DNA from: Polytrichum commune
Taxonomy: Eukaryota > Streptophyta > Polytrichopsida > Polytrichales > Polytrichaceae
Length of the DNA stretch: 64,000 nt
Direction: 5' to 3'
NCBI GenBank assembly: GCA_950295325.1
Contig: OX485804.1
Location: 3,472,001-3,536,000 of the forward strand
Shown: in pieces, positions 1-37,468 of the stretch
Position numbering within the stretch: the stretch's first letter is position 1
Layout: every line of letters starts with the position of its first letter
Made by a program: the position numbers and the translations under genes
The notes under the pieces: generated by a model
The model's database searches: none
What the model saw: the letters and a program-made list of their open reading frames with translations, nothing else
Told to the model about the DNA's origin: nothing

Positions 1-1
1 T

Positions 2-319
2 ATCCTCGACTACGAAGGCAGAGCTACGCTTGCACAAGCGTTTGCCGTGGTTGAGAGATGTGATCGGGCTCTCTGTCAACACGATGCCACAGACATAGTA
101 TCTTGGATGACAGAGAGTACGAAATCAAGAAGAATTGTCACAGCTACTAGTAGTTTAGCTGAGACTCAACCCGTTAAGGAGCAAAGGATTTTGCATTGTT
201 GGGGTTGTGGAGAAGCTGGTCATTCGAAAAATTATCCCAATTGTCCTAAGAAGAAGAAAACAGCCTTTGGGAAAATTAAAACAAAAGATAGAATTAGTAA
301 AGGCAGGGGACAATTCTAA
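2..319 (+). pseudogene. Gag C-terminal fragment with a first zinc knuckle
   Basis: This frame is open from the window edge to TAA at 317-319. It carries a knuckle-like C-x2-C-x4-H with the last Cys six residues on rather than the usual four (about 194-250), followed by a run of lysines typical of nucleocapsid. The reading then has to move by +1 to reach the frame holding the second knuckle and the protease. This could be an inserted base or programmed +1 frameshifting of the Ty3 kind. With the element otherwise broken, a mutation is the simpler reading. The N-terminal capsid part lies outside the window. Confidence 0.7.
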
Positions 320-1856
320 GAAGAGACAATTGAAATGTAACCATTGTGGTGGCACTAATCACGATGTGGATCATTGTTTCCAACTTCATCCTAAGATGCG
401 GCCTGCCAGTTATGTCACTGGCAGATCTCCACGGGAGCAGAGTCTGGAGGCTAAGGTTGCAGAACTTGAGCAAAAACTCAAATCTTCTGCGTCTTTTGCT
501 CAGATTTCTGAGCCGCATGTGGGTGGTGGCACCTCGGGTTCGGACATGTATATGTTTGGAGCAGCTGGAGAGGTGGTGGCGGCGGCTTCTACTCGCTCAC
601 AAACATTGGCAGATTCGATGGCTTCCACGAGTGGTGGTAGCAACGAGGTGCTACATCCTCGCCATGCTGGACCAGCTGATCAAATTGGTCAAGCACGTTT
701 ACCTCTTTCATTTGGATTGGTAGACATCACTGTTGTTGGGGCTAAAAACCCTGTACCTTTGAGAGATGGGGATTCCATCTCGAAGGATGTTACGCAGGCA
801 TTGGCAAATAAAATTCTCCATATGCCAATTTTCTCGGGTTCGGAGTTTATGGCTTCGGATTTCAAGCCTGCTGCAACTTTTCATTTAGCTAGGAGAATGT
901 TAGGAGGTAAGGCGGATTTGCCATCCCTTCAAGTATCCCAAGCTGTGGTTGACGTACCTGTGGCTGAGGAGGTGGAGGACTTAGCCAATTTGCGAGCGAG
1001 TCTGGTGGATGCGGCGATCATTGCTTTTGGTAAGCAAACTGATATTCTTCCATCATCAATTTCAGCAGTGGATACGTCATTTTCGAATTTTGCGGCGGGA
1101 GCGGCATATCTTGCAGACATTTCTGCAAGGCCTGCTCGCGAACGGCATAATTTGCAACCTGGAGTTGTACGGCTGGTGAACGACAAATCTTTGTTTGTCG
1201 TTTCATGCACGGATGTGCCTACTATCCGTGCTACACCACTGAGAGTTATGATGGATTCCGGTGCTCAACCGGTTATGATTGGCAAAAGATTTGCTGACAG
1301 TCTTGGATTGACGCCAGCAAGCTTGGATCTTTGTCCATTCACTATTGTGACTTCAGTAGGGGGCATTGAACGTGCAACAGGTTACACCAAGGCACCTCTA
1401 CGTTTGATTTTTCATGTGGGGACAGGGCCTACTTACACTTATTTGTCAATGAAGTGTGTTGTTACTAATGCTACCAACTATGATATACTTGTTGGTCAGC
1501 AAGCTCTTTACCCACTTGGCTTTGGTTTGGATAATTGGACGGAAGAGGCATGGATTAGACCGGGATGGTCCACTGGAGATGGCAGGAAGGTATTTATTCC
1601 CGTCACATTTACAGCCACTGCTATGACTATGGTTGCGGAGGCAATGTTTGGTTGCAGCGGTTCAGTTGCAGATTTGCCTTGTGCTCTAGTTTTATTGGAG
1701 GAAACAATGGACTACACTTGTAATGCGGCAGAACAACAATTTTTACCATCTTTTCAAATTCATACTCGACATTTCAAGGATCCACCTCCACCATGGCGAA
1801 CTCCTAAGGAGTTATCCGACCATTGTCGACACATTGTAGCGGATTTGGAGCTTTGA
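300..1856 (+). pseudogene. Gag second zinc knuckle and aspartic protease segment
   Basis: The frame is open from about 207, but only the part after about 300 looks like element protein. It starts with a canonical C-x2-C-x4-H-x4-C knuckle (about 336-380), followed by a heptad-like stretch (SLEAKVAELEQKL) that could form a short coiled coil. A long low-similarity linker comes next. The retropepsin fold is marked by the DSGA active site (codons 1254-1265) and a downstream hydrophobic DILVGQQAL motif typical of the second half of the protease. The frame ends at TGA 1854-1856, directly before the methyltransferase, which continues in the same frame. Its last residues (V-A-D-L-E-L) resemble those at the end of the methyltransferase module (V-A-E-E-L). 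Confidence 0.8.
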
Positions 1857-3032
1857 GAGGCACCTCCAACTTCATCCTCATTTTCTTTTGCTCAACCCAT
1901 TCGTTGGCAACCATCACCTGAAGGTATTGTCCTTGTAGAGATCTTTGGAGGCATTGGCACAGGTTTGGCGGCAGTGTTGGAAGCTGGAATTACAGTTTGG
2001 CGATATATTCATATGGACAATGGGTATGCAGCCAACAGAGCCGTCCGACACCACATCCAACAATTGTTGTTGAGATACCCCGCACAATTATCAGCCTCTG
2101 CCATTCATGGATGTTGTGATCAACTTCCTCAAAATGTCACTATAATTAGTGACGAGGATTTGAGAAGGTTGGGCCACGTGGATTTGATTATTGCAGGATG
2201 GCCTTGTCAAGGCCATTCGCGGGCAGGAACTGGCCAGGGATTGGATGATCCTAGGTTTAGTTTGTTTGCGGATTTGATGCGATTGACGCAATGGTGGTTT
2301 ACCCACCAATCAACTCCGCCAGGGTACATTTTTGAAAATGTACCATTATTGGGTGATACCCGGCACAAAGTGGTGAAGGATGGTGAGTACATTAACCAAA
2401 TTCTGGGTACTCCAACATTTCTGGATGCTGCATCTTTGGGATCCTTTGTTCATCGGCCTCGTTGGTTTTGGACCAACTTGGTACCACCTCGGGTGCTTTC
2501 AGTGGCGATTGCCCGCATTCCCCGCCTTAAGGATCGCAATGTGGATGACATTTTAGATGATCATCGTGTTTTCTTGGCAGTTACCAAGGATGACACCTTG
2601 CCATTTGCATTAATTAACAAGGTGGAAATTCCGAGAGGTGCACTACCTACTTTTGTGACATATTCACAGTCTTTTGCATTTCGATCTCGTGGACCTGACA
2701 TGATTTGGGATTCAAAATCCCAAACTTATGAGGAGCCTACGGCAGATGAGCGGGAACGCGCCATAGGTTTTCTTACAGGTACTACGGCTGCTCACGGGCT
2801 TCAGGAAGGTCAGAGACGTTTCCTATTGGGGCAAGCTATGGATCTTAATAGCATTGTGTGGATAATTGCAATTTATCTTGCTGCTCAACAACGTATGGAT
2901 GACCAATTGCTTACTCTGAGGGCAGAGAACAATGGTCAGGGGGCAATGGAGCCGCAATCCAAGGATCACATTGAGGTCAATGACACCGAGGGATTATTTC
3001 CTTTGAAACTTCAGGTTGCGGAAGAGCTTTGA
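1857..3032 (+). CDS. Retrotransposon-borne cytosine-5 DNA methyltransferase, DNMT3-like
   Basis: The 391 codons between TGA 1854 and TGA 3030 are open and in frame with the protease before and RT after. Motifs run in the non-permuted order I to X: motif I VEIFGGIGTG (1935-1964, SAM binding); motif IV GWPCQGHS with the catalytic Cys codon at 2205-2207; motif VI FENVP (ENV at 2334-2342); motif VIII HRPRWFWTN (from 2451); and a motif IX/X-like C-terminus ending in GQAMDLNS (about 2829-2852). The spacing and wording of I, IV, VI and VIII (for example DLIIAGWPCQ and the PRWFWTNL block) follow animal-type DNMT3 more than plant DRM, which is permuted, or CMT/MET1, which carry extra domains. No chromodomain, BAH or UBA domain is present. 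The predicted role is 5-methylcytosine formation with SAM. The key residues look intact, but activity is unproven. There is no ATG near the start, so translation would need readthrough of TGA 1854 or an internal start; the first AUG-like options lie inside motif I or later. Confidence 0.9.
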   Translation, partial: EAPPTSSSFSFAQPIRWQPSPEGIVLVEIFGGIGTGLAAVLEAGITVWRYIHMDNGYAANRAVRHHIQQLLLRYPAQLSASAIHGCCDQLPQNVTIISDEDLRRLGHVDLIIAGWPCQGHSRAGTGQGLDDPRFSLFADLMRLTQWWFTHQSTPPGYIFENVPLLGDTRHKVVKDGEYINQILGTPTFLDAASLGSFVHRPRWFWTNLVPPRVLSVAIARIPRLKDRNVDDILDDHRVFLAVTKDDTLPFALINKVEIPRGALPTFVTYSQSFAFRSRGPDMIWDSKSQTYEEPTADERERAIGFLTGTTAAHGLQEGQRRFLLGQAMDLNSIVWIIAIYLAAQQRMDDQLLTLRAENNGQGAMEPQSKDHIEVNDTEGLFPLKLQVAEEL

Positions 3033-3980
3033 GCCCAACGTGTTTTTTCGGCTTTGGCCCAAGAGTTTGGGAAGTTGGAGGCCCATAAAATGTTTTCACT
3101 TCTATTTCTTGGTGATACTTCATATGTGGGTAGTTATTTAGCTACACAAACTGATTGTAGTGGAGAGGATACGCATTTGGATTCAAGTACAGATGATGGG
3201 GGCAAAGGTGTTGCCCTCTCCACGGACTAGCAATCACAAGCTGTGCTGGCACCAAGTGGAAATCCTTCTATGAAGAAGGAAACCACGGAGTTTGACGATT
3301 GGCCAATTGAAGTGGGGCCAAAGCTTACTGGTGCCGAAGCACGAAAGGTACGGGCATTTATTCCCTCTTACCATAATTGTTTTGCCTTTAGTCTTCATGA
3401 TCTTGAAGGATATAAAGGTAAACCTGTTCATATTCAACTCGAGGACGACCACCCTATTTTCAGACGGCCGTACAGACTTAGTACCTCTGAAAGGTTGGGT
3501 GTTCAAACTCGATGTCAAGAGTTATTGGCAGCGGAATTGATTGAACTCTCCAATGGAGAGTATGCTTGTGCCACGGTTATGCCGTCAAAGAAGGATATCT
3601 TTGGCAACTGGACGGAAAAACGGATGTGTGGTGATTATCATCCAGTCAACCGCAAGACCAAGTCGGATCGATATCCAATGCCGATGCCGGAGGAGTTGTT
3701 TGATGCACTGGGATTTTCTAGAATCTTCAGCACCCTGGATTTGAGGTCTGGTTATCACCAATTACCTTTGTTGTTGGGTGATCGGGTGAAGACCGCATTT
3801 TGGGAAATTGATAAAAATGGCAATGATCAACTTTATCATTGGAAATTTCTGCCATTTGGTCTCAATAATGCACCAGCTGAATTTCAGCGGGTGATGAACA
3901 ATTATTGGTTGATTTGCCGTTTGCTAGATGTTACATTGATGATGTTATCATCTTTAGTAATAGTCCACAGGATCATGTGA
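3033..3980 (+). pseudogene. Reverse transcriptase, N-terminal half
   Basis: This is in frame with the methyltransferase. A linker (3033-3227, ending in TAG 3228-3230) leads into the RT connection region and fingers/palm. Visible RT motifs are the block FGNWTEKRMCGDYHPVNRKT (the usual VDYR region reads GDYH), the palm motif A STLDLRSGYHQ with its catalytic Asp, and motif B FLPFGLNNAPAEFQRVMN. The frame then runs into unrelated residues and stops at 3980. The YIDD catalytic motif follows one frame away, so a single-base loss near 3897-3911 splits the RT. RT copies the element RNA into cDNA in cytoplasmic particles. As it stands this copy cannot make a whole RT without a -1 shift. Confidence 0.88.
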
Positions 3981-6373
3981 GACATTTGCAAGCGGTATTT
4001 GAACAACTTCAACGGTGGGGACTCCGTTTATATCATGGAAAATGTAAGTTTTTCCATGATCAATTGCCCTATTTAGGCCACATGATTGTTCCTGGCGGTC
4101 TTGGTGTGCAACAGGCGAAGGTGGATGCTTTGCACAAAATTCCCGCACCTAGTGATGTACCACGGCTTCGTGCATTTCTAGGATTGGCAAATTATTATAA
4201 GAGGTTTGTCAAAAACTTTAGTTTGATTGCCAAACCTCTTACCATTCTCACGGGGAAAGACCAACCATGGATTTGGAGTCGGGAACAACAACAGGCATTT
4301 GATACATTGAAGCAGAGGCTCGGTTCAGCGCCAGTGCTTCGACGCCCGGATGTGTCTAGAGCTTTTCAATTGCACACGGATTGGAGTGCAGCGGGATTGG
4401 GAGTGGTATTGACACAGAAAGATGAAAAGGGAAAGGAAGATGTGGTGGCTTATGCATCTGGAAACAATAATAGTGTTGAATCTAATTATTCTTCTTATGA
4501 AGGCGAGGCCTTGGCGGCCGTTTGGGCCATTGCACATTTTCGACCTTATTTGTATGGGCAAAAGTTTACTTTGGTGACTGATCATCAGCCTTTAAAATGG
4601 CTTATGGAATCAGATAAGCTCACCGGGAAACTTGCTAGGTGGGCATTGTTACTTCAGGAATATGATTTTGAAGTTGTTCACCGAGCAGGAATTGCCAACT
4701 TGGATGCAGACGGATTGTCTTGCAATCCAAGTCCTTCAGATGAGGATTTAATTGGAGCCAGGTGGCATGGAGATTGTGATCGTGAGGCAATGCCGGGTTG
4801 GCATGCTGCCACATATCTCACAATGATGTCAGAATTGGCTGCTGAGATCCTTGTGGAAGAACAAGATGAGGAGGTTGATAAATCTCTTGTTGTTAGTGAT
4901 GTGTGGGAAGACCAGGCGGTCTTGCACAAACTTCAACAAGGGATATTTCCTCTTGGACTATCTGCTATGGAGCGAGATAGAGTTAGTCATCGAATAACAA
5001 GGTTTCGTTGGGCAAACAGCTTGTTATTTTGTGTGTGGCCAAACGGAACGAGGCGTATCGTTCCAAGGCCAGATCAAAGAGCTTCTTTAGTGCGGCAAGT
5101 GCACGAGGAGCTTGGACATTTTGGAGTGCGAAGGACACACTCTATGTTGCGCAATCAATATTGGTGGACTGGTATATATCAACAGGTTGCCACTTATGTT
5201 TCTCGGTGTGAAGTATGTGACCGGGTTAGGTCAAGTTTTAATACTTTATCACCTCAACTTCAACCTTTACCTATTATGGGCTTGGGATATCGTTGGTCTT
5301 TGGATTTTGCCGGACCGCTTACTATCACTCCACGTGGCTCCAAGTATGTGCTTGTGATGGTGGAGCATTTTAGTAAGTGGATTGAACTCGTGGCTCTTCC
5401 CCAAAATTCCTCAGAATTGGCGGCTATGGCATTTCTTGATCGAGTTTTGGCACGGTTTGGAGCACCTGCAGAGGTGTTGACGGATCAAGGGAGAGAATTT
5501 CTTGGATCTTTCGAGGCTTTGTGTACCAAGGCTTTGATTGATCATCGAACAACTTCCAGAGATCACCCTGAGGCAGATGGCTTAGCTGAACGAGTTGTTC
5601 AGACGGTTAAGCGCGGTTTGCAGAAGTATGAATTGCTTCATGGCAACCATCGCGATTGGGACTTGATGTTACCATGGATAGCAATGGGTTATCGTTTCAG
5701 CAGGCAAGCATCTTTGGCATCCTATAGTCCTTACCAACTCTTGTATGGACGGGAACCAATTTTACCTAGCTCGGTGCGAGAGAAATTGGCTCCCGTGGTA
5801 AATTTGGATGATCCAAATGTTTGGGCTCAATGTCTTCATGACCGAACAGCGTTCTTCCAAAAGGCCATGCCTATGGCTATGGAGAACTTAAATATTGCTC
5901 AACATCGTGATACATTACGGTATGTCTGGATCCGCAGTGGAGTTTATCGACCTCAGGTTCGTAGATTTTCCAAGGGGGATTATGTTTACTTGCAACGGGA
6001 GGCGCCTACGACATTGGATGTCAAGGCTGGGCGCACTATTTTTCGAGTAAAAGATGTTTTGCCAAATGGTATATTATTGCTTGAAGGCAATGATGGATGG
6101 GAATGTCGTGAGCATTCAAAGAATTGTGCTCCATGTCACCTTCCCATCGACGGCTCTCTGCATCCCGAATTGGCGGTTGTACCACAGGGTCTGCCTTGTT
6201 ATGTTTGTGGAGAGAAGAAAAGAGCTGCAACAATGTTATTGTGCAACCAATGTCAACGTGGATGGCACATGGCATGTTTGACACCTCCCCTTTTTACTCT
6301 TCCTTCTGGCAATTGGGTTTGTCCTCGTTGTCGGAAAGCCTCTCATTCCGTGGCCGTTAATGGTCATGATTGA
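3905..6373 (+). CDS. Pol C-terminal half: RT motif C, RNase H, integrase, PHD finger
   Basis: This is a long intact frame of about 822 codons whose Met is only a conventional start; it is really the continuation of pol. RT motif C YIDDVIIFS is at residues 10-18, with RT thumb to about 120. RNase H covers about 155-275, with the acidic residues in LHTDWS, YEGEALA and VTDHQP. The integrase H2C2 site starts at His 400 (HEELGH) and ends with CEVC at 435-438. The catalytic triad is Asp 467 (LDFAG), Asp 527 (TDQG) and Glu 562 (LAERV), with 34 residues between the last two. A basic/aromatic C-terminal integrase region follows, and then a C4HC3 PHD finger at 765-809. No chromodomain is seen. The stop is TGA 6371-6373. 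Confidence 0.92.
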   Translation: MVDLPFARCYIDDVIIFSNSPQDHVRHLQAVFEQLQRWGLRLYHGKCKFFHDQLPYLGHMIVPGGLGVQQAKVDALHKIPAPSDVPRLRAFLGLANYYKRFVKNFSLIAKPLTILTGKDQPWIWSREQQQAFDTLKQRLGSAPVLRRPDVSRAFQLHTDWSAAGLGVVLTQKDEKGKEDVVAYASGNNNSVESNYSSYEGEALAAVWAIAHFRPYLYGQKFTLVTDHQPLKWLMESDKLTGKLARWALLLQEYDFEVVHRAGIANLDADGLSCNPSPSDEDLIGARWHGDCDREAMPGWHAATYLTMMSELAAEILVEEQDEEVDKSLVVSDVWEDQAVLHKLQQGIFPLGLSAMERDRVSHRITRFRWANSLLFCVWPNGTRRIVPRPDQRASLVRQVHEELGHFGVRRTHSMLRNQYWWTGIYQQVATYVSRCEVCDRVRSSFNTLSPQLQPLPIMGLGYRWSLDFAGPLTITPRGSKYVLVMVEHFSKWIELVALPQNSSELAAMAFLDRVLARFGAPAEVLTDQGREFLGSFEALCTKALIDHRTTSRDHPEADGLAERVVQTVKRGLQKYELLHGNHRDWDLMLPWIAMGYRFSRQASLASYSPYQLLYGREPILPSSVREKLAPVVNLDDPNVWAQCLHDRTAFFQKAMPMAMENLNIAQHRDTLRYVWIRSGVYRPQVRRFSKGDYVYLQREAPTTLDVKAGRTIFRVKDVLPNGILLLEGNDGWECREHSKNCAPCHLPIDGSLHPELAVVPQGLPCYVCGEKKRAATMLLCNQCQRGWHMACLTPPLFTLPSGNWVCPRCRKASHSVAVNGHD
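6197..6331 (+). other. PHD finger domain at the integrase C-terminus
   Basis: Zinc ligands are spaced C-x2-C-x11-C-x2-C-x4-H-x2-C-x14-C-x2-C, a textbook PHD pattern. It has the conserved Trp two residues before the seventh ligand (NWVC). PHD fingers commonly read histone H3 tails (K4 methylated or unmethylated). At this position other gypsy chromoviruses carry a chromodomain that steers integration. I infer a similar targeting job, which the sequence alone cannot show. Confidence 0.88.
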
Positions 6374-6697
6374 GAATTTTGTGGATGTATACCACATGTT
6401 TTAGTGGTGAAGTTGTTATTTAGTTGGTTGGAAATTTTATGGAATTAAGATCACATTGAAAGAGTTATCTAAGAATTCAACATTAATTGTTGAAGGCGAT
6501 TAAGGATGGGGCTCACATTGCACTCAGCCTACAGTTCTTGGATTACTTTGTCAATTACGAGTTTAATTCCTTCGATTACTACTACCCAATTAAATATGTA
6601 TAGATGTAGCAACAACTTCATCATGTTCAACAACTCTACCGATGAGTGTGTTTGTTCCTAGCCGATTGGAGGGGCTCCTTATCTGCTAGTGGAGGCA
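6374..6697 (+). other. Element 3' untranslated stretch
   Basis: This lies between the end of pol and the first 107-bp repeat copy. It has no open frame of note, no convincing polypurine tract and no domain signal. Confidence 0.5.
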
Positions 6698-6804
6698 CTT
6701 GAAGAGGTGGTTGTTTAGCATTTTAGTTTGCTATTTTATTTTGCTAATTGATGTTGACAACGACACTCGATCTGTTGTGTTTAACGATCTTAGTTTACAC
6801 GACA
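6698..6804 (+). repeat. 107-bp direct repeat, copy 1 (truncated LTR end?)
   Basis: This is identical to 7242-7348 except for one base (T versus C in the CACTCGAtCTG part). It ends in ACGACA, as copy 2 does. Upstream sequence is unrelated between the copies. It may be the 3' end of another LTR lying head to tail, two bases (AC) before the candidate LTR that starts with TGTCAC at 6807. Confidence 0.85.
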
Positions 6805-6806
6805 AC

Positions 6807-7348
6807 TGTCACGTGAGGTGACATCGGGGGCTAAGTTACGTCAATTTAGGAGTAAATGGATTTCATTAGGAGTCCATGTGTGTTGGGATGAGTAACGGAC
6901 TCCATTGGGAGTCCTAGTTAGTTGTTCATCCACTCCATGGATGAACTCCACATAGGATTGGGGTTGTATGGAGAGGAAGGCCTCTTGACTTGCCATTGTT
7001 GTCAAGTCAAGTCTTGTGAATGTGTTTTGAGAGAGAGAGAGAGAGCTTGTTGTTGCTTTCTCATGGCTATGGTGTAGTAGATTATGAGTAAAGCCTTTGC
7101 ATTCTTTCTCCACCACTTGCACTCTTGGATTCTCCCTTCGTGGAGTGAGAGATAGCTTGACTCTTGTGTATGAATTTTAGAGTTTCTTAAGCTTTGTAAG
7201 GAGACATTTTAGTTTCTTAAGCTTGGAGAGAGAAACCACGTCTTGAAGAGGTGGTTGTTTAGCATTTTAGTTTGCTATTTTATTTTGCTAATTGATGTTG
7301 ACAACGACACTCGACCTGTTGTGTTTAACGATCTTAGTTTACACGACA
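6807..7348 (+). repeat. Candidate 3' LTR (542 bp, TGT...ACA)
   Basis: It starts TGTCACGTGAGGTGACA and ends ACACGACA, giving the expected TG...CA termini, and it follows pol. It contains a GA-rich tract (7030-7045) and two strong hairpins (6897-6914 and 6924-6946). Its last 107 bp are repeated at 6698-6804. No polypurine tract directly precedes 6807, and the 5' LTR is outside the window, so the borders are inferred. Confidence 0.5.
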
Positions 7349-7600
7349 TTGGAATAAATAACTAGGATCTAAGTCAATATGGACAAAAGACTTGTCTAGT
7401 AATAAGAATGCATCTGAGATTTTTTTTGCACAAGTTAAAATATATACATAATAAACCAGTTTATTTGGAGGAAGAAACTAGAAGAATATGATGAAATTCT
7501 TAATACTACATACTTTGATAAGCAATATGGTCAAACATTTTCTCTAGATGTGTAATTTTTCATAAAATAGCACAATATACATGCAATTAAGAATGCTACA
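7349..7600. other. AT-rich spacer
   Basis: Nothing recognisable was seen between the retrotransposon end and the older gypsy remnant. Confidence 0.4.
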
Positions 7601-7629: not shown

Positions 7630-8895
7630 CATTATGTCATCTCTATCATAGGGATTCTCATCCCTTCCAATCTGTGAAAGTACAGCTCCCAAAGCAAAAT
7701 CCGAGGCATCAGTCTCCACTTTCATTTGTCTCCATTCTTGATTTGTACGAGATTATAAGCACCACGTAGGTCAATCTTGGTAAAAACCTTCGCACTCCCG
7801 AGTTGTTCCAAAAGTCCAGAGATCAAGGGGATAAATAACGATTCTTCTTTGTCACCTTGTTGAAACCTCGATAATCCACGTACATTCATAATGAGCCATC
7901 ATTCTTCTTCATAATAGAATAGGCGCTCTAGCTGGTGACTTAGAGTAGCGAATGAAGTTTTTGGCCAGATTCTCGTCAATATATTTCCATAATTTTGCCA
8001 ACTCTATTTGTGATAGGTTGTAAATCGAGCTTAAAGGCGGTTGTGTTCCTTCTTCCAAATCATTTGCACAATCATATGGACGGTGCTCTAGAAGTATGTT
8101 GGCATTCTTCTTCAAAATCACATCTTTAAAATCCTTATATTGCTCCAGAATACTGGTTGTTGAGGTCTTCTCTTCACTAGTTGGAGCCACATAGATGGAA
8201 AATGGTGTGCCTTCCTTAGACGATCTTACAAACGCCTCTGCTTCAATGAAGAGGGGTTTCTTTATTCGCGGTTTTCTAATATGTTTGATAGATTTTCTAA
8301 CATTGTTACTGTCTGGATGGTCCAAGGGGAAGGGGATAGTCATCTTCCACAACTTTCAGTCTACAGATGGATGGTATTTTTTTAACCAAAAGATACCAAG
8401 AATAATAGGATTTGATGGGGTTCTAATAACATTGAAGATAATGTGGCTACCATGGCCTTTAAATATCACCTGCAAAGGCATTGTTTCATGTGTATCATTG
8501 CCTGAGGACAAAGGTCGTCCATCTATCACTTCTACATGGATGGGTTGAGATTTTTGAATTAAAGGGAATTTGTGACTCTTGACAAATTCTTCATCTAGAA
8601 AATAAGCATATGCTCCAAAATCTAACAAAACAATGGTTTTAAGTTTCTGAGGACCAAAATACAAGGGAATTATAAAACAAGGTGCAGGTTGACTGGAAAG
8701 AGAGGAACTTAAATGTTGTTGTGAAACTGAGTTGTCCAACCGCACGGTTCCTATTCTGGCTAGGCATCTTCGTTTTCCTAGACTATGATAATGTTGGTCT
8801 TGATAATACGTTGATTTGGCTATTTTGGGCAGTTAGGGATTTTGTGACCTCCTCTGCAGCAATACAAACATAGTCCTTCTTCCATCCGACGTTAC
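7630..8895 (-). pseudogene. Second Ty3/gypsy remnant (Gag knuckle, protease, partial RT, RNase H scrap)
   Basis: Read on the minus strand from 8890 downward. A perfect C-x2-C-x4-H-x4-C knuckle lies at 8870-8829. An aspartic protease frame follows (8745-8356) with LLDFGA where DSGA/DTGA is expected, and GIFWLKKYHPSVD at its end. The RT N-terminal frame (8352-7909) contains EHRPYDCANDLEEGTQPP and YIDENLAKNFIRYSKSPA. RT text continues in other frames to [17 protein letters not shown] near 7740. It then jumps to RNase H text (ETDASDFALGAVLSQ, about 7720-7675), so motif B, YxDD and the thumb are deleted. The wording is that of fungal-like chromoviruses also reported from mosses. No intact polyprotein remains. 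Confidence 0.88.
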
Positions 8896-9877
8896 TTCTC
8901 TTCCGGAATAAGATGTTTGACATGTATTGTGTCAATTTGCATATTTGTAACCTCCGAATGAGAACTCGGGTTGCGTGCTGACATAGATGAGGTTTGTCGG
9001 GTCGTCTGCTCCCTTGAAGGAGTCTATGATCTCTGGTCCTAGGGACGTTGGAAGAGTTGGTTGCAGCAATTGACCGCTTCATTAATAATATATGATTATT
9101 TTTAGTCACAATACAACTAATAGTCATCGTTAATGGACAAATGTATTTGTCATATAATTACAAGTAGTGAAGATCATGTAGTCATGTAAATACATAACAT
9201 GATTAATTCTAGTAAAAAAATAAAACTACACATAACTAAATATAGTCACATAAGTATGACTACAAATAATAAGAAATGACAAAAGGTCGAGGGACAACCC
9301 AAAACGAGGTATCAAAACCCCATGGGAAACGAAAATTGTTTGATATGACCGTAATCATTATTTTGTCTAAAGCGACTGGTCCGACATAACCAAGTTGAGG
9401 ACCAAAAATGATGCTAGTCATCTATACACTTTCTTACTTATATTAGTCATAAACTCTAGTCAATTTGTTTGTTTTCCTTGTAGTATACATTTAATTTCAA
9501 ATTGACTAAAACAAGGTCTATAAAATAACGTTATTTTTTATAGAACTTTAAGGCTAGGCTAAGTGACCATAGATAATTAAGTTTTTTACCCATTTTTGAC
9601 ACTCTTAATCTAACACACATGCTACCAACTTAAGTTGAGCCCTCTTTGCTTGCATTCACATTCTCATTTTTGTTGTTACAACAAGCCAATCAATCAATTT
9701 GACCACGTTCCTTCTCTTATCCACCCAGTTCTATCTCATGTTGTAGGAGCCTTGTCACGTACCTCAATACAAGAACAATTACTTTTTAGCTTTTTGTAAT
9801 CACTTTTTAGCTTCTTATGCATCGAGGGATTAAGGACTTGCACAAATTGCAAAAGAAAAGTAAGGAATAGAAAAAGA
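8896..9877. other. AT-rich intergenic stretch
   Basis: Scattered short frames only. The 9080-9128 part may continue the gypsy remnant. Nothing else is recognisable. Confidence 0.4.
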
Positions 9878-17135: not shown

Positions 17136-17926
17136 TAAAACGTTGTGAATGATTTGTTATCCAATGAAACCCCAATTTTGAAATCCACATTTTTTATGTG
17201 TGAAGATGAGTCATATAACCGTGTTCTAATTCTTTCCAAGATTCTTTTCACCGAATCCTTGATTGTTGCCCAATGGCAACCAATAATTATGTGGCTTCTT
17301 TGTCTTCTCCGCGTGGAATTATGCAAGACATATTCTTAAGAAATGAAAGTTGTTCTTGGGAGCTGAGGTCTTGCATTTAACTTTTGATATCATGAATATT
17401 AGAGCCATTTGTGATGTGCCAAGAGCATACTTGGTCATATTCTCTAGATGTTGGACCTCCCGCAAGCATGATTAGGTACAAAATACCAATAAAATTTGTG
17501 TAGCTCGTATGGTAAGCTTGGGGGGTCTTCATGGGTCTTGGATGCCATTGTTAAAGAAGGAAATGTTTGTGAAAAATCTTAGTGCAAATGAAATATCATA
17601 ATTGCAGTTTGATACCGACGCACCCAAAAACATAAAATTCTATGGAATTGGAGCCCACCCTGTAACAAGAATGCACTATTCAAAAGTTGCTTCATGAGGT
17701 GATTTGTTGCAAAGCCAATCATGTTGGCTATATTAGAAATGTAGGCATTTTTCAAAACATCAATCAAGGTTAGTGGATTAACTATTAACTCTTCCAATTT
17801 TGGGAATGACATTGAAGGTTAGTCCAGAGAATCACAAGATAAACACACAAGTGCGCATGAGTAGGACCAAGAAAGCTATATAAAAAACTGCCAAACAGTA
17901 CAATCGTAGTGAAAAAAATTCATAAG

Positions 17927-19140
17927 TTGAAATCTAGCTGCCTTGATAGCACATACCTTGTCTCACTACAAATAATGAACGGGGAGAACCAGCCCTTAGC
18001 TACAGATGACTCGGTTAAGTTTGAGAAATAATCATTTGAGGTTGAAGACTTCAACAAGGTTACCATCGTCCTAGAGGAATCCATATATCTCAATTTAATA
18101 TAAAAATTTGAGGTGACCATGAACCGAACCATTCAGATTGACATCACCCTTTGTAAGTTTACCCACATATCCACGTTCTTCACCGAGGTAAGCATAAACC
18201 GAGCCATTCAAATTGGTCTGAAACCTTGTGGCTTAACCCACATATCCACATTCCTCACGGAGGTAAACATGAACCGATCCTTACAGGTTGACATCAAACT
18301 TTGTGGCCTAACCCACATATCTCCATATCCACAATCCTCACCGAGGGAAGTCTGAAGTGAACCATGAAGATTATCACAAGACTCTGTGGCTTAACCCACA
18401 TATCCACACTCCTCCCCAAAGGCTGAATCTTGGAAACCGGAGCTCATTTGTGCCATTTCAAGCCCTATCCATCATGCCTATACTCAAATCTTGAAATCTA
18501 GCTACCTTAATAGCATAAACCTTGTCTCACTACAGACAATGACCAGGGAGACCTGGCCCGCTAGCTACAGATAATCCGGCTAAGTTTGAGAAATAACCAT
18601 TCGAGGTTCAAGACTTCAGGAAGATTACCAATCGTCCTAGAGGAACCCAAATACCTCAATTTAATAAGAAAACCGAGGTGAGCATGAACCGAACCATTCA
18701 GATTGACATCACACTTTGTGAGGTAAACCACATATCCACATACCTCACTGAGGTGAACATGAACCGAACCATATAGATTGACATCCAACTTTGTGACCCA
18801 TGTATCCCCATATCCGCATTCCTCATTGAGGTAGGTCTGAACTGAACCATAAAGATTATCATGACTCTTTGTGAGTTAACCGACGAACCCACATTCCTCA
18901 TTGTGGTAAGGCTGAATCTTGGTATCCAGAGCACATTCATGTCATTCTAAACCCTGTTCATCATGCCTATACTCAACTGTGGAAATATAGTTGCCTTGAT
19001 AGCAGACACATTGTCTCACTACCAACACTGAATGGGTAGAACCGTCTGCTAGCTACACATGATCCGGTTTAGTTTGAGAAATAACCATTTGAGGTTCAGG
19101 ACTTCGGGAAGAATACCAATCATCCTAGAGGATTCCTAGA
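17927..19140 (+). repeat. Nested tandem repeat, about 0.5-kb units with 75-bp sub-repeats
   Basis: Large units start at about 17927, 18491 and 18979 (the last truncated), each with a GAAAT(A/C)TAG(C/T)TGCCTT-like start and a GGGAGAACC...TAGCTACAGAT...GGTT(A/T)AGTTTGAGAAATAA core. Inside units 1 and 2 a 75-bp sub-repeat recurs from 18110, 18185, 18260 and 18343, and from 18675, 18750 and 18828. Each begins GAGGT(G/A)... and contains ATGAACCGA and CCACATATCCAC. The core also occurs singly at 41243-41487 and 57328-57566. No coding capacity. Confidence 0.85.
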
Positions 19141-34702: not shown

Positions 34703-37468
34703 TTAAGCAACATGGCCATTTGTAGCCCCATTTACGCCATGGCCATTCGCAGTGCCATTTACACCATAGCCGTTCTCGAGCTTGCTGGCCTTCATGTCGG
34801 TCATGGGGACGCCTCCAGCACCGCGGGTGATAGTATCAGGGACCGGGACGTAGCGTTTCCACCACCAATGCTTGTTCCAGACCAGGTCCATTTCTTCAAT
34901 GGGGACGCCCTTCGTCTCGGGCACGAAGAAGAAGACGAACGTCTGCATGATGACCACCCAGGCGGCGAAGAAGAGGAAGATGCCCCACTTGAAGGTGCAC
35001 AGCATCGACAGGAACACCTGGGCGATGAGAAACGTGAAAAACAGGTTGGTGCACACTGTGATACTTTGCCCCGCCGACCTCGTCTCAAGCGGGAAAATCT
35101 CACTAGGAATGAGCCACCCGAGTGGCCCCCACGACCATGCGAACGATGACACGTACACGCAGATCAACACCACCGCGATGATTCCCAGCAACGACGACAT
35201 TGTGTTCCCCTTCATCCCTGTTGCCAGGATGATGGCGATCGCCGTCTGGACACATTGCACAATTCCCCATCAGCCTACCAATTTTCATTCCACGAAAGAT
35301 CATGAAGCTCGCTAGCAAAATTCCTTTTGCTAAATCTTTCTGGCATGGGAGAGGTGTACTAGGTACTATGGGAGCCATTAAACAATAACCTTGATTAGGT
35401 AATCTTCAAGCACAAAGAAACAGGATCGTTGTGGTGGATTCGTTAGTTTTTTTCCTTACCTGGGCGATGAACATTTGGATGCCGGCTTCCAAGAGCAGGG
35501 CACGCCGGCCGACACGGTCGACAACGATGATGGCGATGACGGTGGAGATCACATTGACAGCACCGATGATGACAGCGGAGTAGAGCGCCGCGGAGCTTTG
35601 AAAGCCCAGGGTCTGGAAGAGCACGGGAGCATAGAACATGATGGCATTGATCCCCGTGAACTGCTGGAAAAATTGGAGCAGCATGGAGATGATGAGCTGC
35701 GGCCGGCTGCGGCGACGCAGGATGTTGCGGAACGGGTCCTTCACTTGCGCAGCCTCGTTGCTGGCAATTAAAATGTCGTCGAACTCAACATCCACATTCT
35801 GGATGCCTCGAATCTTCTGCAAGACGTGCCTGCCCCGCTCCAGCTTCCCTCGCTGCACCAGGCTGTTGGGTGTGTCGGGCAGGACGAGACCGCCCACAGT
35901 GATGAGGATGGCAGGGATCCCTGCAATGCCCAATGACACTCGCCACCCATTGTGCGTCATCTTCTCCGTCCCGTAATTCACGAGATTCGCGAACAAGATG
36001 CCGATAGTCACGGCCAGCTGGAACAGGATGTTGAGACCGCCTCGCCATTTCGACGGTGCCATCTCCGACAAGTAGAGCGGCACAGCCTGCTCAGAGTCAG
36101 AAGAAGAGTGAGAATTTAGTTTTTCCTTACAAAACAACCCCGAAATTGAAGTTTGCAATGACTATCAAGCACAGGACTGATTCTTTCAAATGGGCCGCGC
36201 TTGAGCGGAGACTCACAATTTCTCTGGCAAGGGCTAATTCTTGAGTATGCTAGGATTGCTTGGGCCAAACCCTTGAAGTTTGAAGCATTTCAACATCAGC
36301 TATGAAACAAAAACTCGACGTTCTTCGGGTTGGAGTCAATTGTAATTTGCTCTATTGATTCCAGTGCAACTCCAAGATGTCGTGGAATATCAAGAGGCCA
36401 AGCCGCCACCTATTGTTGGCTTAGTTCATCATACTTAGCCGTCTTGATGGTACCCTTCTTGGAGCAGTTTTGTAATTCCACGCACGATGAAAATAAAATT
36501 ATTAAAAGAAGAATGGAGAGACCGACCTGATTTGCGAAGCCAACCCCGACACCGAGCATGATTCGGCCGAGGATGAGCATGATGATCTCCTGAGCGGCAG
36601 CATTCAAGACAACTCCCACGCAGAAGGAGATGCCGGCACAGAGCATGGTGGCTTTGCGACCATAGTTCCTTGTCACGTAGGAGGCGAAGAACGTGGCCAC
36701 CAGGCCCGCAATGTAGAGCGACGAAGTGAACGCTTGCAGCTTCTGGTCGTTGTATTTACAATATGCGTTCTCGGTGGCCGCAGCCGCTCTCTTCTTCGCC
36801 AACACGACGGGGAAGAATTTGGCCAGAAACTCGTCCATCGATGTCACTCCACCTGCACAAATTTCAGATGAATTTTTTGAGGTTGAGAGCCTCCTCGATT
36901 CATAATTCTTGCCCAACTGAAACAAACCTCAATTCCTGCGCAGAAAGCTTCAACTCTGCATACCTAGTCCTTCATGGTCCTAAAATGCGGATGGGAAGAG
37001 AATCCACTGCAAGAGTGTAAGAACAAACTGACATCAAAGGGATAAATTACCACATTTCTTAACTATCTTGTAATCGATTTGAGCATATTGAGTACTTCTA
37101 AATTCAGAGCAATTCTTCTGTTCAAAGTGCAGAATCACATCCCTGGTTTCTTGGGCGTGGGATGATTAGCACGCAAACATGAGAGCAATGACAAGCTAAA
37201 TTTCCAGGTTTTGTAACCAGAACCGTATACACCCATCCTTTTGTTGAAAATCCTGGGATTTTTTTTCCTTTTCTCGCGGGTGTAAATTCTGTGACCAGAC
37301 AAAAAAACAGAGACGGATGTGAGGAGATTTGTTACCAGAGATTCCGACATCGTAGCCAAACATGAGTCCTCCAGACGCTGCGAGAACGCAGACCATACAG
37401 ACAAAGAATGTCGTTCTTCCCTCATAGTGCTTGATCTCCCCCGCCGTCACCACCCCTCCTCCCGCCAT
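34703..37468 (-). CDS. STP: STP-family monosaccharide/H+ symporter
   Basis: Four exons on the minus strand: 37468-37336, 36852-36527, 36086-35460 and 35245-34703 (1629 nt, 542 aa). All borders are GT-AG and the phases fit. It is a 12-helix major facilitator of the plasma membrane that imports hexoses with protons. Visible signatures are [20 protein letters not shown] in TM1, NYGRKATM between TM2 and TM3, and [14 protein letters not shown] joined across intron 2 to [11 protein letters not shown]. Further on are [15 protein letters not shown] in TM7, [30 protein letters not shown] in TM10 and [11 protein letters not shown] after TM12. The two Cys of the STP lid disulfide are present (NAYCKYND and LSMLCTF). 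The C-terminus carries a short Gly/Asn-rich repeat ([16 protein letters not shown]). Plus-strand frames inside the exons are shadows. The ATG starts the usual MAGGGVV N-terminus. Confidence 0.96.

Follow-up and report, generated by a model that had tools for sequence, protein, structure and literature searches.

The stretch of DNA analysed here (the window) comprises 64,000 nucleotides of the genome of the moss Polytrichum commune and corresponds to G000:C2:3472001-3536000 in the host assembly. Its first part is occupied by a Ty3/gypsy-type retrotransposon whose 5' end precedes the window; the entire insertion spans G000:C2:3469509-3479348 (9,840 bp). The element has the Ty3/gypsy domain order PR, RT, RNase H and IN with a DDE integrase, as found with Pfam (PR under the cut-off score), and it also encodes a DNA methyltransferase (MTase) domain and a PHD finger. 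The features are listed in Table 1.

Table 1. Features of the retrotransposon in the window, with the evidence for each.
Feature	Position	Strand	Evidence or remark
3' three quarters of gypsy-type element	1..7348	+	A repeat upstream in L054; TTGG duplication on both sides
gag, C-terminal part	1..500	+	Two zinc-knuckle-like stretches, read by eye from translations
Aspartic protease (PR) of ORF1	1224..1505	+	PF13650/PF13975, residues 356-449 of frame 159-1853; DSGAQP string
Stop TGA of the window copy, between PR and MTase	1854..1856	+	ORF list
MTase domain (~1926-2861) and variable tail	1857..3032	+	PF00145, DNMT3A profile match, motifs; early TGA 3030-3032
ORF1 stop, TAG CAA TCA (UAG-CAR-YYA)	3228..3236	+	Readthrough-type context; consensus from PMC3542737
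ORF2 start and first part of RT	3231..3980	+	PF00078, 7.9e-11; frame broken afterwards
Remaining ORF2: RT end, RNase H, IN, PHD	3881..6373	+	Pfam
RNase H	~4274-4663	+	PF17917, 2.2e-36
Integrase zinc-binding domain and DDE core	~5069-5569	+	PF17921, 6.9e-17; PF00665, 7.1e-14
PHD finger	~6197-6331	+	PF00628, 1.1e-9
Purine-rich stretch directly before B1	6690..6698	+	Candidate polypurine tract; other copies have GGGGG
Repeat B1, 107 nt, ends GACA	6698..6804	+	Repeat comparison
B/A junction, GACA-AC-TGTC in the window	6801..6810	+	Repeat junction
Repeat A2, ~435 nt, starts TGTC	6807..7241	+	Its partner, A1, lies outside the window, at the start of the element
Repeat B2, element end	7242..7348	+	Repeat comparison
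3' copy of the 4-bp target-site duplication TTGG	7349..7352	+	Flank comparison

Positions 1857-3032 form an open frame of 391 codons in the ORF list, and this frame matches the Pfam family DNA_methylase (PF00145; E value 3.9e-11, score 43.4 bits, cut-off 22). The window copy contains the strings FGGIGTG, GWPCQ, IFENV, HRPR and GQAMD, which correspond to motifs I, IV, VI, VIII and X, respectively. Motif I lies ahead of IV, VI, VIII and X, which is the non-permuted order; the permuted DRM-type order is not found in the window MTase. A profile built from the window domain and 25 of its 71 relatives was searched against the PDB and matched human DNMT3A (1.3e-24), a tobacco-type DRM (4onj, 2.7e-10), HaeIII (3.4e-7) and HhaI (1.2e-6). 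By profile, DNMT3 is the nearest among the solved C5-methyltransferases, and DNMT1 and CMT chains are absent among the 55 PDB matches at E ≤ 0.1. As judged from its sequence, 1857-3032 encodes a non-permuted DNMT3-like cytosine-5 methyltransferase domain with its catalytic motifs present, in agreement with the first-pass annotation of this DNA.

The MTase shares its frame with the protease ORF (159-1856) and with the start of RT (3231-3980). The earlier description of an MTase between PR and RT, in frame with both, thus holds for order and frame; continuity is broken by stops at 1854-1856, 3030-3032 and 3228-3230. The first two are defects of the window copy, one ahead of the MTase and the other in its C-terminal tail, and a frame break lies within RT, so that the element is indeed broken elsewhere, as had been noted, in both its ORF1 and its ORF2 frame. 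At the site of the TGA at 1854-1856 the frame is open into the MTase in the 20 copies fetched from the genome, which were chosen for long frames. The further TAG at 3228-3230 keeps the MTase apart from RT, is conserved across the family and looks functional from its sequence context.

The zinc-knuckle-like stretches of gag comprise one CX2CX4HX4C and one variant. They span the frames 2-319 and 159-1856, different frames since the frame is broken in the window copy, and Pfam gave no match for them. The protease matches have E values of 1.8e-4 (PF13650) and 8.7e-4 (PF13975), both below the Pfam cut-off score. A PHD finger after the integrase is present in the window element, in L017 (3492-6632), which comes from an independent assembly, in 10 of 11 aligned moss ORF2s (it was missed in L053), and in the metagenomic relatives P0101-P0103. 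By analogy, it may fill the role of the chromovirus chromodomain. The mention of PHD in the relevant passage of PMC3286476 concerns a neighbouring host gene.

The repeats of the element follow a split plan, A-coding-B-A-B, and B1 and B2 of the window differ by one base. In the window copy (L054) and 12 further members of its subfamily, the 5' end consists of A alone after unlike flanks; subfamily 2 (L035, L036, L040, L050) shares the A-coding-B-A-B plan. Two copies, L038 and L041, are A-coding-B only. A canonical LTR element, with two identical flanking LTRs, was rejected, the 5' side having A only and the 3' side B-A-B. Both ends were compared for 14 insertions (12 long and 2 short, from 21 copies in total), and in each of them TGTC...GACA is flanked by an exact 4-bp duplication: TTGG in the window, CCAC in L035, ACTT in L038, GTAA in L039, GATG in L040, AACG in L041, GAAG in L042, TTAT in L043, TCTT in L044, GAAG in L045, TAGC in L046, CATC in L047, ATTG in L048 and ACTT in L052. 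The G-rich tract that precedes B1 and the leader that adjoins A1 are placed as a polypurine tract and a primer site would be. No tRNA primer site was recognised near the A end; the initiator-Met tRNA sequence had a single match, at 2410 in L036. In the 5' A repeat of L043 (G000:C5, 64-619), the final 127 bases are present twice in tandem.

The B/A junction is found at 262 places in the genome (up to 2 mismatches), against 2 for a reversed control pattern, and most of the 100 places listed read GACAGCTGTC, a 10-base palindrome. It lies 3' of the ORF2 region in 16 of 20 loci (none in L034, L038, L041 and L049). DIRS elements restore the ends lost from their RNA through an internal junction. By analogy, we read the B/A junction as holding both integrase ends, so that the internal B1/A2 junction could restore the ends missing from the RNA. 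A circular intermediate was not accepted as the sole explanation of the short copies L038 and L041, because a deletion between B1 and B2 in a long insertion yields the same product with its target duplication. The A-B-A form at the 5' side, expected if two-repeat circles are cut at either B/A junction, occurs in none of 20 loci.

The host genome (a 407.8-Mb assembly of 64 contigs, seven of them of 42 to 78 Mb) contains many further copies. If the seven large contigs stand for chromosomes, their number would suit Polytrichaceae. A six-frame search scored at least 123 PF00145 places, out of 352 candidates, all above the cut-off; at least one of these, at C2:4.7036 Mb, is a host DRM gene, with permuted order. 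A DNMT3A query gave at least 134 matches, including this DRM and a multi-exon host DNMT3 at C7:33.955-33.958 Mb. Twenty copies were read, selected for open frames of at least 1195 aa around the MTase; they are not a random sample and therefore overstate the intactness of the family. In all 20, which come from all seven large contigs, the MTase is followed by RT, so that the search for other copies set as a test in the first-pass annotation had a positive outcome; the same order is present in L017. The protease string DSGAQP occurs in 19 copies (L040 is without it) and the integrase string in 17 (not in L034, L037 and L046). A second subfamily (L035, L040, L049, L050, L051, L053) coexists with that of the window, subfamily 1. 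The two are ~63% identical in the MTase and ~90% in RT and IN, and by this comparison ORF1 evolves much faster than ORF2. A1 and A2 differ by zero substitutions in six of the 14 copies compared (one of the six with two gap positions), and both ORFs are open in all six. The A1/A2 divergence (K2P) is 0.012 in the window and 0.021 in the oldest pair compared. By these sequence comparisons the moss elements are a multi-copy family of retrotransposons with their own DNMT3-like enzyme; several insertions look recent, and the family has probably been active recently.

ORF1 encodes gag, PR and MTase, with the MTase as its last domain, and RT, RNase H, IN and PHD go on in the same frame after its stop. 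The MTase is thus part of a gypsy polyprotein, as had been annotated, but belongs to the Gag-side ORF, as its C-terminal domain, and not to Pol. ORF1 reaches its natural end in 17 of 20 copies (1203-1386 aa) and has an early stop in L034, L036 and L037. ORF2 follows directly, in the same frame, in 15 of these 17, its start being broken in L041 and L048. All 17 ORF1 stops are TAG followed by CAATCA, CAATTA or CAACCA. The remaining three copies carry the same nine bases at the junction, in the RT frame, and ORF1 is frame-shifted ahead of this junction in L034 and L037. The form in L017, as in the window, is TAG CAATCA. Among the 7,533 further stops of these loci, taken as a control, UAG-CAR-YYA occurs three times, namely at the junctions of L034, L036 and L037.

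UAG-CAR-YYA is the type I readthrough consensus of tobamoviruses (PMC3542737). The moss element has the same nine-base context, which in subfamily 2 is exactly UAG-CAA-UUA; in tobamoviruses the readthrough stop splits the parts of the replicase, whereas in the moss element it splits gag-PR-MTase from RT. The conservation of this context suggests ribosomal readthrough at the ORF1 stop. With a leaky stop, the MTase would be a Gag-side domain, present in excess over RT and IN, and a Gag-side MTase predicts a stoichiometry. Candidate readthrough in rice gypsy elements is mentioned in PMC2754532, citing RIRE2.

Retrotransposon-encoded cytosine methyltransferases are on record from dinoflagellates and a charophyte alga (PMC5890265), as the annotation had stated. 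The closest published system is KnitGypsy-Dnmt3 of the charophyte Klebsormidium nitens, which has a Dnmt3-type domain in its Pol ORF, a Ka/Ks below 0.2 and DIRS-like repeats (PMC5890265, de Mendoza et al. 2018). The moss family resembles its published description in the gypsy domains, in a Dnmt3-type domain that is divergent, non-permuted and free of introns and evolves under purifying selection, and in the A-coding-B-A-B repeats, as PMC5890265 defines them for DIRS. The hosts differ (a moss here, a charophyte alga there), and the DNMT of KnitGypsy-Dnmt3 lies inside the Pol ORF, whereas the moss MTase is the last domain of the Gag-side ORF, ahead of a readthrough-type stop. The moss family sets itself apart by this Gag-side MTase and the conserved stop. 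Further features are its PHD finger and the defined structure of its insertions; by term counts, the main text of PMC5890265 is without PHD, readthrough or target site for KnitGypsy-Dnmt3. SymbioDIRS-Dnmt3 and SymbioLINE-Dnmt of dinoflagellates likewise encode a cytosine methyltransferase but are DIRS (tyrosine recombinase) and LINE elements, whereas the moss element is a gypsy element with a DDE integrase (PMC5890265). DIRS and PAT elements share the split direct repeats A-coding-B-A-B; the moss element differs from them in its DDE (rve) integrase and 4-bp target duplications, and a tyrosine recombinase is absent among its Pfam matches.

According to a 2019 opinion (PMC6338049), such elements are absent from land plants, such as tracheophytes, and a 2025 paper (PMC12344493) places them in streptophytes and dinoflagellates. 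In one library of open-access papers, searched by title and start of abstract, neither a bryophyte case of a methyltransferase retrotransposon nor a gypsy element with such split direct repeats was found, and the passages of PMC9033089, PMC12477816 and PMC6453930 that bear on the subject contain no bryophyte case either. The moss family is a counter-example to the absence from land plants, if bryophytes are counted as land plants.

These features could be joined in one model, which we favour with somewhat more confidence than doubt and of which the gene order is given by the sequence. Most ribosomes would stop at the UAG, so that Gag and MTase, in excess, would enter the virus-like particle, and a minority would read through to produce RT and integrase. 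The substrate of the DNMT3-like MTase would be cDNA of the element itself, either within the particle or en route to the chromosome. Methylation may shield this cDNA when it enters, or may cause it to integrate in a silenced state, so that the host suffers less damage. A role in the choice of chromatin may fall to the PHD finger of the integrase, and the DDE integrase would join the TGTC and GACA ends set by the B/A junction. De novo CG methylation by retrotransposon DNMTs has been reported (PMC5890265). Since cytosine methylation is a main transposon brake in plants, an element with its own methyltransferase reverses the usual picture of an arms race. The published gypsy case is from one alga, and the moss family brings into a land plant the question of whether the MTase marks the element's own cDNA and whether element or host benefits; well over a hundred genome places and several apparently young copies make this question testable.

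The main target of the MTase might instead be the host genome or competing elements, reached through a trans effect on host chromatin or by competing with host de novo methylation. This would suit an element found at over a hundred places in the genome, whose PHD finger suggests contact with chromatin, and host-wide effects have been suggested for some cases of retrotransposon DNMTs; against it, the Klebsormidium methylome is similar to those of land plants despite KnitGypsy-Dnmt3 (PMC5890265), and a benefit in cis is a simpler way to keep the domain under selection. We consider action chiefly in trans unlikely.

Mutations in the copies were compared for traces of methylation. Singleton changes in ORF1 of subfamily 1 include 125 C>T against 69 others, with C>T rates of 0.083 in CG, 0.073 in CHG and 0.067 in CHH. 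In ORF2 of subfamily 1 the C>T rate in CHG (0.079) exceeds that in CG (0.025), and in ORF1 of subfamily 2 CG and CHG are ~2x CHH. The ORF1 and ORF2 singletons bear no consistent CG signature. C>T is not concentrated in CG, and there is therefore no sign of CG-specific self-methylation; the spectrum fits ordinary, host-style plant methylation in several contexts.

dN/dS was calculated by the method of Nei and Gojobori for 17 ORF1s and 11 ORF2s from the 20 copies. The value for the MTase is 0.13 between subfamilies, which is approximate because dS (2.2) is near saturation, 0.24 within subfamily 2 (dS 0.14) and 0.60 within subfamily 1 (dS 0.024). The value is 0.30 for the linker that precedes the MTase and 0.68 for the tail that follows it. 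Between subfamilies, gag (0.14) and PR (0.11) are comparable to the MTase, and RT, RNase H and IN (0.03-0.04) are more constrained. The MTase is, on these values, under purifying selection, and the low dN/dS across copies proposed earlier as a check is seen both between subfamilies and within subfamily 2.

DNMT3L is a known non-catalytic relative of DNMT3. On this precedent, and given its Gag-side position, the MTase domain might be kept for DNA binding or as a structural part of Gag, without methylation; motif X is substituted in 2 of 17 copies (GQSMD, GQTMD) and motif I in 1 of 17 (FGGISTG), which would agree with such a role. We regard it as improbable, since each of the 17 full-length ORF1s, like L017, retains PCQ of motif IV, ENV and HRxR, and the dN/dS of 0.13 applies across the whole MTase domain.

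Searches of 5.8 billion proteins yielded relatives of the MTase in sets of 71 and 35, 105 in all. Those named as plants or algae are six from Marchantia polymorpha and one from Calypogeia fissa, both liverworts, and two from the zygnematophyte Closterium. L017 (CADCWO010000201.1) shares 62% identity with the window across residues 11-391; its record is titled as a cyanobacterium from a metagenome, and 127 identical bases lie at both ends of the contig. The plant-type retrotransposon sequence in L017 (a cyanobacterial bin) and in P0002 (a Candidatus Obscuribacterales bin) is most likely eukaryotic contamination. The domain orders of the relatives are diverse: the MTase ends ORF1 in the moss and L017, precedes RT within a single ORF in P0095 and P0098, and is placed between RNase H and IN in P0101 and P0103, which also have PHD (the MTase of P0103 by phmmer, not Pfam). 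In the more distant relatives P0069, P0095 and P0098, motif IV reads GWECQG, not GWPCQG, with the cysteine retained.

Phylogenetic reconstruction of 41 rows, 28 of them element rows picked from the 105 proteins, the window and the fetched loci, places the element enzymes in one group (96/96). In a second tree, to which the host DNMT3 and DRM fragment were added and from which L010 and P0069 were left out as long branches, the element group (27 rows) holds together (92/94), outside the clade (96/84) that unites the host DNMT3 (from its exons) and the host DRM fragment with human DNMT3A. This separation from host DNMT3 and DRM, the opposite of the placement inside a host gene clade that the first-pass annotation had named as refuting, makes a recent capture of the moss's own DNMT3 or DRM gene very improbable, even though the MTase is DNMT3-like by profile: capture from the present genes of the host is disfavoured by the grouping of those genes with DNMT3A. 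Four phage enzymes are nearer to DNMT3/DRM than the element group is (98/96, second tree); 445 phage records match the MTase at E ≤ 0.01, a Pelagibacter phage enzyme has 76 bits with the window (tblastn), and DNMT3A has 55 bits with the L017 MTase (BLASTP). A single clade of element and DNMT3/DRM rows is not rejected (AU p 0.074), which leaves room for an old origin from a DNMT3-type gene; the element enzyme may be of host or of viral origin.

The differing domain orders within one enzyme group fit a single uptake followed by relocation. As a tentative history, this uptake may predate the origin of land plants or lie close to it, the MTase having since been kept as a particle component at Gag level through the leaky, plant-virus-type stop and methylating every new cDNA in the particle ahead of integration, with the palindromic B/A junction as the integrase end signal; we offer this combination as a possibility rather than as the probable course of events.

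An assembly chimera or a chance MTase insertion in one decayed element, which the broken ORF1 and ORF2 of the window copy might suggest, is refuted by copy number and target duplications: the MTase precedes RT at 20 of 20 loci across seven large contigs, the duplications are perfect in 14 of 14 insertions, and the independently assembled L017 has the same order.

Directly downstream of the element, on the - strand (7909-9157), are frames that by eye resemble remnants of a gypsy-like polyprotein (protease- and RT-like). Diverged direct repeats are clustered at 17926-19132, with units of 85 to 140 nt and spacings of 75 to 1053. A multi-exon hexose transporter gene (STP/MST4-type) lies at 34703-36928 on the - strand and places the host most probably among the mosses. 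Among named mosses, its product is 83% identical to that of Ceratodon purpureus, 80% to that of Physcomitrium patens and 73-75% to that of Sphagnum jensenii; two longer Brassica models top the matches by score at 58-60% identity, and another protein matches at 84%.
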